Below, piece after piece: positions 5,257 through 6,533 of a stretch of DNA of 10,704 nt. Within the stretch, counting starts at the first letter, position 1. Each line of letters starts with the position of its first letter. Both the position numbers and the translations under genes were made by a program. Source of the stretch: Acidobacteriota bacterium (GTDB lineage Bacteria; Acidobacteriota; Holophagae; Holophagales; Holophagaceae); contig JAJYBX010000026.1 of NCBI GenBank assembly GCA_021778785.1, positions 304 through 11,007 on the forward strand, given 5' to 3'. The notes beneath the pieces were generated by a model. It had not been told where the DNA came from. It worked only from the letters and a program-made list of their open reading frames with translations, and searched no databases.

Positions 5257-5505
5257 ATGAGCCCCCAGCCCACCCCGCCCTCCTTCGACGACGGCCTCGA
5301 CCGGCTGGAGGCCCTCGTGCAGCAGCTGGAATCCGGCAACCTGAGCCTGGAGGAGGCGCTGGCCCGCTTCGAGGAGGGGGTCCAGCTCAGCCAGGCCCTC
5401 CAGCAGCAGCTGGCGGAGGCCCAGCGCAAGGTGGAGGTCCTCAAGGCCGGGCTGGGCGGCGAGTACCGGGCCGAGCCCCTGGAGCCCGGCAAGGGGGCCC
5501 CGTGA
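5257..5505 (+). CDS. xseB: Exonuclease VII small subunit
   Basis: An 82-aa cytoplasmic protein, the regulatory subunit that binds several-fold to XseA to form exonuclease VII, a single-strand-specific nuclease. The family core is plain: FDDGLDRLEALVQQLESGNLSLEEALARFEEGVQL (residues 10-44), followed by a coiled-coil helix rich in Gln (QALQQQLAEAQRKVEVL, 46-62). Length is typical. XseA is not in this window. The ATG at 5257 has no clear ribosome binding site, and a hairpin lies just upstream, so expression may be low or depend on readthrough. The stop overlaps the ispA GTG start by GTGA, giving translational coupling, and the order xseB-ispA-dxs matches that of E. coli. Confidence 0.92.
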   Translation: MSPQPTPPSFDDGLDRLEALVQQLESGNLSLEEALARFEEGVQLSQALQQQLAEAQRKVEVLKAGLGGEYRAEPLEPGKGAP

Positions 5506-6533
5506 GCGGCGAGGCCGCCACCCGGGTCCAGGCGGACCTGGCGCGGCTGCTTCCCCTCCTGGACGCCCGGCTCACCACGTCCTTCCAGGATGGCGAGGCC
5601 GCCCGCCTGGCCGAGGCCATGCGCTACAGCCTGGAGGCCGGCGGCAAGCGGGTGCGCCCCGTGCTCTGCCTGCTGGCCGCCGAGGCCGTGGGCGGGCGGA
5701 CGGAGGATGCCCTGCCCGGGGCCCTGGCCCTGGAATACATCCACACCTACTCCCTCATCCACGACGACCTGCCGGCCATGGACGACGACGACCTCCGCCG
5801 GGGCCGCCCCACGAGCCACAAGGTGTACGGCGAGGGGCACGCCATCCTGGCGGGGGACGGCCTGCTCACCGAGGCCTTCCGCGTGCTGGCCGCCGGGCCC
5901 GGCGATCCGGCCACCCTGCTGGAGGCCACCGTCCTGCTGGCCGAGGCCGCGGGCTGGCGGGGCATGGTGGGCGGCCAGGCCCTGGACCTGGAGGGCGAAG
6001 CACGAGCGAAGACCCACCGGCTCGCGAAGCGAGATGGCCCGAAGGGCGAGGCCCAGGGAGGCTCCGCCTCCACGAGAGCAGCGAGTGGGAAGGCGCTCCA
6101 AGAGGAGCGCCTGTCAGGCGGAGGGCCGAGTGAGGGCGAGACCCTCGACCACTACGACCTGGACCACCTCCGTCTCATCCACCGCCTCAAGACCGGCGCC
6201 CTGCTGCGGGCCTCCCTGGAGATGGGCGCGGTCCTGGGCGGTGCCTCCGCCGCCGATCGGACCGCCCTCCGCGCCACCGGCGAGGCCCTCGGCCTGGCCT
6301 TCCAGATCCAGGACGACATCCTCGACGCCACGGCCACGGACGCCGACCTGGGCAAGCGGGCCGGGAAGGACGCCGGCAGGGGTAAGATCACCTACCCGTC
6401 CCTCCTGGGCCTGGACGGCGCCCGCAGGGCCCTGGAGGAGGCGACCGAGACCGCCCTATGCCGACTAGCATCCCTTCCCAACCGGACTTCCCTGGAGGCC
6501 TGGGCCAGGTACTTGGCCCAGCGCGGGAAGTAG
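5502..6533 (+). CDS. ispA: Polyprenyl (farnesyl/geranylgeranyl) diphosphate synthase with in-frame insert
   Basis: A 343-aa trans-prenyltransferase that condenses DMAPP/IPP into farnesyl (or geranylgeranyl) diphosphate, feeding quinone, carotenoid and lipid-carrier synthesis. It shows GGKRVRP (47-53), the first Asp-rich motif DDLPAMD (88-94), GGQALDLEGE (157-166), the helix with LKTGALLRAS (229-238), and the second Asp-rich motif DDILD (271-275), so the catalytic residues are intact. Residues 167-213 are an extra 47-residue low-complexity segment between GGQALDLEGE and TLDHYDLDHL; without it the protein is 296 aa, normal for IspA. The insert is not expected in the family and lies in what should be a surface loop after a conserved helix, so activity may be retained. 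GTG start, overlapping xseB. Exact chain length of the product cannot be told from this sequence. Confidence 0.93.
   Translation: MSGEAATRVQADLARLLPLLDARLTTSFQDGEAARLAEAMRYSLEAGGKRVRPVLCLLAAEAVGGRTEDALPGALALEYIHTYSLIHDDLPAMDDDDLRRGRPTSHKVYGEGHAILAGDGLLTEAFRVLAAGPGDPATLLEATVLLAEAAGWRGMVGGQALDLEGEARAKTHRLAKRDGPKGEAQGGSASTRAASGKALQEERLSGGGPSEGETLDHYDLDHLRLIHRLKTGALLRASLEMGAVLGGASAADRTALRATGEALGLAFQIQDDILDATATDADLGKRAGKDAGRGKITYPSLLGLDGARRALEEATETALCRLASLPNRTSLEAWARYLAQRGK
5991..6139 (+). mobile_element. Putative palindromic insertion element inside ispA
   Basis: An exact 8-bp direct repeat GAGGGCGA flanks the insert (5991-5998 and 6132-6139); one copy plus the insert is 141 bp, or 47 codons, so the frame is kept. 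The insert holds small hairpins in series: CTCGC-GAA-GCGAG (6021-6033), GCCC-GAA-GGGC (6037-6047), GGAGGC-TCC-GCCTCC (6057-6071), and a 9-bp stem with AAGA loop (6091-6112). Twelve of its 47 codons end in A or T, against one of the 47 codons before it. This fits a small non-autonomous palindromic element that inserted in frame, as described in principle for Rickettsia palindromic elements. No transposase is nearby and no second copy is in this window; I recognise no named family. Alternative: an ancestral insertion of the lineage. Confidence 0.65.

Follow-up and report, generated by a model that had tools for sequence, protein, structure and literature searches.

What are 47 additional codons, bracketed by an exact 8-bp repeat, doing inside a bacterial ispA gene? 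The question is raised by a stretch of 10,704 nucleotides from an Acidobacteriota bacterium of the family Holophagaceae (contig JAJYBX010000026.1; this whole stretch is hereafter called the window). Here, ispA, a gene of the farnesyl diphosphate synthase type, occupies positions 5502–6533 of the forward strand and encodes 343 residues including the insert, as delimited by its open reading frame (ORF) and by the NCBIfam family NF045485 (FPPsyn), which the protein matches as two stretches with 318.5 bits against a cut-off of 275. The comparisons described below indicate, with a probability of roughly 0.85, that the insert belongs, as one of its copies, to a family of small mobile elements that persist, in Geothrix and near genera, either in frame within genes or at start codons. 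The elements are mostly 72–78 bp in length, with long forms of up to about 141 bp, and carry no enzyme of their own.

An initial annotation, made from the sequence alone, had described an in-frame 141-bp unit between two copies of the 8-mer GAGGGCGA, and both are borne out by the sequence and the 343-residue ORF, the 8-mer being exact at 5991–5998 and 6132–6139. The annotation's codon count was nearly right: 13 rather than 12 of the 47 insert codons end in A or T, against one of the preceding 47 as stated, and the insert differs from the remainder of ispA (15/295; Fisher P 1e-5). The ends of the element (5993–6133, forward strand; 141 bp, long form, 47 residues in frame) were set by empty-site comparison across 45 ispA genes and by the family ends seen in other copies rather than by the limits of the 8-mer. 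The element's own left end, GGCCGAAGC, is found in many copies, including those at sites with unrelated flanks, and the 8-mer overlaps both element and target because this left end resembles the target GGGCGAGAC. The target side GGA (5990–5992, forward strand), lying immediately left of the element, is retained in empty sites such as that of the genome G001, where CTGGA is directly followed by GGGCGAGAC. Of the genus's five filled ispA genes, three (G000, G011, and G019) have an exact 8-bp repeat and two (G009 and G033) an inexact one. The repeat itself thus stands, while its reading as a plain target duplication is disfavored, since it is exact in 3/5; judging from these alignments, it is probably not a faithful target duplication at ispA.

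The genus sample comprised 47 Geothrix genomes, 45 of which had an IspA match, and the site could be read in 45 ispA genes from 44 genomes, one further gene ending at a contig edge before the site. The insert is present in the five genes named above, and the remaining 40 show a clean empty site, their proteins mostly reading GGQALDLEGE up to the junction and continuing into YDL, a distribution contrary to a universal lineage-specific loop, which the initial annotation had named as the alternative. The G019 and G033 inserts are 78-bp short forms, to which the long form adds 63 nt within the last hairpin. The 72%-complete assembly G011 contains two ispA genes, one filled and near-identical to that of the window and one empty (contigs C73 and C82), and is probably a mixed bin.

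At the protein level, 23 of the best 120 IspA relatives listed are filled at the same site, the window's cluster P0001 among them, and their inserts are short, long, two long forms in tandem (P0016), or one and a half short forms (P0021). Two of the 120 were unreadable by pattern, with lengths like those of empty proteins, and P0035 was called filled and P0025 empty by eye. In a tree of 119 of these proteins, built with the insert removed, without P0016 and with its bootstrap not settled, the 22 carriers are scattered and need at least 18 changes, six of them forced by well-supported branches; shuffled carrier labels give a mean of 20.5 changes, with 30 of 500 shuffles as low as 18. Furthermore, the insert-bearing segment is 0.946 identical between G000 and G009 over 186 nt as opposed to 0.803 and 0.879 for its flanks, and the nearest other genome compared, G001 (flank identity 0.906 and 0.930), has an empty site. 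Given the scattered carriers and a segment closer than its flanks, the ispA insert has therefore been repeatedly gained, lost or exchanged.

Copies of the same unit are widespread beyond ispA. A plain DNA search returned matches in 36 of 37 genus genomes and in none of 23 others, and a covariance model of four hairpins found copies in 46 of 47 genus genomes at E ≤ 0.01, with up to 28 per genome; it found none in 23 genomes outside the family, an empty result which alone shows nothing. The window's own genome (80% complete) has 14 matches at E ≤ 0.05, ten of them at E ≤ 2.3e-6, and among the weak ones two overlap each other and one resembles another repeat. An even draw of 297 genomes of the phylum gave 25 with matches, comprising 21 genomes from the genus, three from other genera in the family (three of the five drawn, the other two being without) and one distant assembly whose single-copy match could be contamination. 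The further copies that the initial annotation had proposed to look for in the genome and its relatives are thus present, and together with the 40 empty sites they support its mobile-element reading.

As far as this can be tested, its statement that no named family fits also holds for the sequence, whereas the kind of element has precedents in the Rickettsia palindromic elements (RPE) and the mycobacterial interspersed repetitive units (MIRU). No Rfam family reached the gathering score in 12 copy-bearing loci, and the window yielded only a tRNA (96–168); a known structured RNA family was rejected on the same grounds for the window's element. Likewise, carriage of one start-codon copy by plasmid or phage received no blastn match in a search from which records very near the window may be excluded. 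Separately, locus L255 (G000, contig C219) holds 82–85-bp repeats with a similar hairpin layout and GTCA ends, behind an apparent tRNA 3' end (GGTTCGAACCCC).

All features of the window copy lie on the forward strand. Hairpin 1 (5993–6015; from alignment and covariation) pairs GGG at 5993–5995 with CCC at 6013–6015, a slipped form of the GGCC/GGCC pairing of other copies, around a conserved loop GAGCG(A/G)A. Hairpin 2 (6017–6037), supported by covariation and the triloop survey, is capped by a GAA triloop (6026–6028), and hairpin 3 (6038–6046; triloop survey) reads CCC-GAA-GGG. Hairpin 4 (6050–6127; helix 4 covariation) pairs GGCCC at 6050–6054 with GGGCC at 6123–6127, and its loop in the long form takes up an extra 63-nt block. 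The element closes with its right end GTGA (6130–6133; compared with the right ends of 176 unique copies), which in start-codon copies is the new start codon plus A. Both-side changes occur at all four pairs of helix 1 and at eight of the nine of helix 2, and GNA triloops cap hairpin 2 in 98 of 122 copies with a detectable stem and hairpin 3 in 137 of the 141 (of 163) fitting the pattern, all four bases occurring at N. Across 133 distinct rows, 94.9% of cells pair and 20 of 24 pairs change on both sides; the 399 double changes compare with 12–56 for slid partners and were equalled in none of 500 shuffles. The four hairpins covary strongly.

By comparison, the predicted RNA fold of 5991–6139 (−69.6 kcal/mol, z −2.31, 6/200 shuffles equally stable or better) is, taken alone, modest evidence of hairpins. 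The successive small hairpins of the initial annotation are confirmed by this fold and the family covariation; its proposed long-range pairing of CTCGC (6021–6025) with GCGAG (6081–6085) falls away, as CTCGC pairs locally with GCGAG at 6029–6033 in the covarying hairpin 2. A branched long-range fold of the insert is consequently replaced by local and nested hairpins supported by covariation.

The extra block, termed module B (approximate limits 6057–6119), was delimited by comparing the 141- and 78-bp forms, by its inverted repeat and by partial-query matches elsewhere. It contains hairpins formed by GGAGGC/GCCTCC (6057–6071) and AGGCGCTCC/GGAGCGCCT (6091–6112), and the short inserts of G019 and G033 lack it. 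As an independent repeat, module B (GGAGGCTCCGCCTCC...GTCAGGCGGAGG) is encountered at other loci as well (for example L125, L128, L114, and L115), sometimes as inverted pairs; in the long forms compared, the length that it adds to hairpin 4 is divisible by three.

The ends of the element were surveyed in 176 unique copies from 168 loci, some of which overlap, with coding frames called by a codon model. TGA is the left flank in 136 of the 175 copies having three left bases, and the right end is GTGA in 94, ATGA in 40 and GTCA in 18 of the 176. The element hence follows GA, usually within (A/G)TGA, and itself ends mostly in (A/G)TGA. Because the right end recreates the target, copies stack head to tail without a spacer, and exact tandem arrays are found, for example five 74-bp units in G032. 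The two ends, beginning GGCCGAAGC and closing GAGTGA or GCGTGA, are not inverted repeats of each other, and at most the (A/G)TGA overlap could be counted as a target duplication.

Partial duplications of gene 3' ends flank some copies, namely at nuoD (L134, L276, and L316, the gene being named by family search at L134) and at two further sets of loci, L318, L320, L336, and L197 as well as L192, L193, and L221, which we take to be lepA-like and uvrA-like 3' ends, respectively. At the uvrA-like gene of G002, gene end and element together make up a 348-bp unit that is present three times over. The flank was found again nearby in 14 of 141 copies examined, and one-ended transposition as the cause of these duplicated gene ends is a guess.

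The commonest location among the copies examined is the start codon. Eighty-two copies with sufficient flank are 74 nt long and have TGA on both sides, the left one within ATGA (55), GTGA (26) or TTGA (1). In all 82, the frame set by the left start codon is open to the terminal TGA, giving leaders such as MSTKQERSATLAKPKPEGRGTGGAA. The old start thus reads a 25-codon leader whose TGA overlaps a new (A/G)TG carried by the element. AGGAGG lies within the last 24 nt in 71/82, usually six bases before the new start, and AGGA is present in 78/82, invariably ending 8 nt short of the start codon that the element supplies. Downstream, the best coding frame coincides with that of the supplied codon in 64 of the 82, and in 59 of the 63 where the signal is clear. 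Simulated drift left a mean of 71.9 (random placement) or 75.9 (observed site rates) of the 82 frames open and all 82 in none of 1000 runs, under a null which ignores relatedness. To judge by their sequences, start-codon copies look like a portable leader cistron.

The 64 copies of 3n+2 length and matching frame precede 33 different genes. A family scan of 29 downstream proteins, taken from an earlier set of 30 groups, named 19 at E ≤ 1e-8, and the named genes include NuoC, DnaE, MurF, NAD synthase, Ddl, ClpX, PntB, KdpA, and an RND permease. The start of hemC provides filled and empty sites: among 30 genomes fetched (45 had a match), ten have one to three copies and 20 none. G063 and G061 form a near-exact pair: the empty site of G063 reads CCATGA directly followed by GCAGGAAGCACGTCACA, and the filled site of G061 reads CCATGA, then the element closing with GCCGCATGA, then GCAGGAAGCACGTCACG. 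The ORF upstream of hemC stops at the TGA of the same ATGA, and the insertion preserves both overlaps.

Copies within proteins form the second class, to which ispA belongs. Of 34 copies with a length of 3n, 14 have a coding signal on both sides, 12 of these being in frame and ten in the same phase. Another 105 copies have other lengths; both signals are present in 22 of them, and in 20 of these the right frame is that of the supplied start. A slightly lower threshold gives 14 in-frame copies, two at gene starts and 12 within proteins of seven families, namely IspA, UvrA, topoisomerase III (with two copies in tandem in G017), trigger factor, a homogentisate-dioxygenase-like protein, methionine--tRNA ligase (between the catalytic part and the C-terminal domain) and a large protein that matches no NCBIfam family. 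Eleven of the 12 mid-protein copies share one phase, the trigger factor copy being in another, and the window's own genome has in-protein copies in ispA, topoisomerase III, and trigger factor. The inserted peptide comprises about 25 residues (47 in the long form), often starts with E(A/P/T)EAGA and is read in a frame different from that of the leaders. By their sequences, surviving copies are compatible with translation in two ways, with 3n nucleotides within genes and 74 nt (3n+2) at starts.

In IspA itself, most of the inserted peptide is predicted to form a disordered loop. The AlphaFold2 model has a mean predicted local distance difference test score (pLDDT) of 82.2, residues 179–216 scoring below 50; this non-helical stretch is placed between helices 155–177 and 220–229, and the first dozen or so inserted residues are modeled as prolonging the preceding helix. 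A Foldseek search with the model returned prenyl synthases. The model agrees with the initial expectation of a tolerated loop which leaves the Asp-rich motifs untouched, most of the insert lying in the low-confidence inter-helix stretch, distant in sequence from the motifs.

Direct observation covers the presence or absence of copies at fixed sites, their precise ends, their tandem stacking, and their translation-compatible lengths; how the element moves is more conjectural. The gene-sense strand can fold into four hairpins, two of them usually GNA-capped. According to PMC6479982 and its citation of Yoshizawa 1997, DNA minihairpins with GNA loops are unusually stable, which is why we lean toward a single-stranded DNA intermediate, and movement may proceed via this folded single strand with an enzyme supplied in trans, the weakest step of the scheme. 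After insertion at a start codon, the downstream gene would be started by a ribosome that has just translated the leader or by one that the carried Shine-Dalgarno site attracts, and insertion would in consequence be nearly neutral. The more ambitious proposal is that a single family uses both known ways of hiding in translated DNA, start-codon coupling and in-frame passage, through a hairpin length of 3n+2 or 3n, moves as GNA-capped single-stranded DNA by an enzyme that is neither Y1 nor Y2, and would bring MIRU and RPE together as a single class of translation-compatible mobile DNA; it is offered tentatively, as we expect it to be wrong in part more readily than right throughout. Elsewhere in the window, a Lys/Ala/Glu-rich ORF with internal repeats (KKAEKKEAKKAVKKEAKKAEKK) lies on the reverse strand (2296–2976).

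Several results weigh against a mobile family of this kind or limit its reach. No movement was observed, and searches for Y1_Tnp and Y2_Tnp pointed to no mobilising enzyme: Y1_Tnp is present in 5/47 genus genomes and Y2_Tnp in 10/47 (0/14 control genomes), neither of them in the 80%-complete genome of the window, and the two groups of Y1 copies checked have ends unrelated to the element. The leaders carry 275, 181, and 256 substitutions at codon positions 1, 2, and 3, so that protein-level conservation of the leader peptide is not seen; since changes are not concentrated at third positions, it is an open frame that is kept, not a particular peptide. The 64 start-codon copies before 33 genes are related by descent and many of their sites are orthologous. 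In-gene copies mostly have CGA, GGA or AGA on their left, indicating a looser target rule there. Some copies lie in partial duplications of gene 3' ends and fall outside the explanation. Moreover, the covariance model was built from 13 short copies chosen by eye and the pair counts come from an alignment fitted to it, which favors the model, though the gap is wide. Lastly, the IspA tree cannot separate repeated insertion from exchange or precise loss.

This ambiguity bears on the strongest of the competing explanations, according to which homologous recombination or precise excision, and not fresh insertion into ispA, now accounts for the spread or loss of the ispA allele between species. The greater identity of the insert segment than of its flanks between G000 and G009 speaks for it, as do the at least 18 changes (six forced) among the 22 carriers of 119, close to the shuffled mean of 20.5. 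We regard it as quite plausible and give it slightly less than even odds; repeated insertion at a hot spot fits the same unsettled tree, and recombination is silent on the first arrival and on the copies elsewhere. An old, immobile IspA loop, with the repeats elsewhere being chance GC-rich palindromes, would explain why the ispA inserts seen all occupy exactly one position and have distinctive traits in common, the hairpin-2 sequence for instance. Such a loop is scarcely credible: 40 of 45 sites, that of G001 included, are clean and empty, and copies in six other protein families and before 33 genes have this fold and these ends as well as similar peptides.

A cis-regulatory RNA, that is, a translational leader or attenuator inherited with its genes, would share with the element a conserved fold, a Shine-Dalgarno motif in the last hairpin and a leader ORF coupled to the start codon. 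We judge it improbable: the downstream genes are functionally unrelated (NuoC, DnaE, ClpX, MurF, KdpA, PntB, and RND permease), presence at hemC is patchy (10/30), copies form tandem arrays and lie within proteins, and the 12 loci gave no Rfam family at the gathering score. Regulation as a side effect of the element is possible. Somewhat less remote, if still unlikely, is a REP-like element moved by a domesticated IS200-type Y1 transposase (RAYT): GNA hairpins on one strand, a fixed short insertion sequence and head-to-tail copies are in the style of single-strand transposition, yet the 42 of 47 genus genomes without Y1_Tnp include that of the window and the five richest in copies, the Y1 elements of G067 and G020 end differently, and the copies of the family have no GTAG head. 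With 11 of 15 Y1 loci compared in these two genomes and their ends unrelated, a RAYT/IS200 mobiliser is not supported. The loci concerned are five near-identical IS200-like elements with GC-rich end hairpins in G067 (L200, L204, L206, L208, and L210) and six near-identical copies in G020 (L201, L205, L207, L209, L211, and L212), all unrelated to the element. An IS91-like Y2 mobiliser was also rejected, being patchy (10/47) and absent from the window's genome, while the copy-rich G009 and G066 have short or interrupted Y2 matches, which makes the more ambitious proposal above slightly less likely.

A translation-compatible mobile family hence accounts best for the ispA insert, and it illustrates how a gene-less parasite survives in a dense bacterial genome where translation can continue. 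It adds a third phylum to a phenomenon described in Rickettsia and mycobacteria and links both descriptions. The many filled and empty sites in Geothrix, several species of which are cultivated, make the mobiliser and the effects of the leader cistron testable. The inserted peptide also offers protein evolution material to work on, and some IspA and topoisomerase proteins already contain tandem copies.

Among known repeats, REP/BIME sequences with RAYT are likewise short palindromes thought to be spread by an enzyme in trans; here, in contrast, most carriers are without a Y1 transposase, the unit has several hairpins, and copies start mostly with GG or GC and end mostly with (A/G)TGA or GTCA instead of showing the GTAG/CGTC head of REP. 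Unlike in MITEs, the ends are not inverted repeats and an 8-bp target duplication is disfavored at ispA. BOX, RUP, and SPRITE of the pneumococcus are small non-autonomous repeats able to form ORFs; in the excerpts of the source (PMC3049150), start-codon targeting is not reported, nor is a good Shine-Dalgarno sequence for any of the ORFs discussed. Bicistronic-design leaders, in which a short first cistron delivers ribosomes to a gene (PMC12548453), are engineered, whereas the Geothrix element is natural and mobile.

The two nearest systems each parallel one class. MIRU units of approximately 50–100 bp insert at DTGA sites and form tandem copies. In the published description (PMC12548453, which cites Supply et al. 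1997), these mobile repeats insert at start codons and contain an ORF coupled to the gene at −4 nt. The 82 of 82 open 74-nt copies and the filled and empty hemC pairs resemble them in start-codon insertion and 4-nt overlap; the Geothrix family differs, by description, in its phylum and in also being found in frame within proteins. RPE (Ogata et al. 2000, 2002) are described as palindromic elements of approximately 150 bp inserted in frame in unrelated genes and encoding a conserved peptide (PMC10969869; PMC3733652), a likeness shared by the 12 mid-protein copies in seven families; by description again, they belong to another phylum, and the excerpts of those accounts do not mention start codons, where most copies examined here lie. 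No description of this family, or of one family in both niches, was among the matches listed in the open-licence literature. The element is a real mobile element of a kind already known from RPE and MIRU, both modes in one family being new among those matches. By analogy, its start-codon class would work like MIRU and its ispA class like RPE, with membership claimed in neither.
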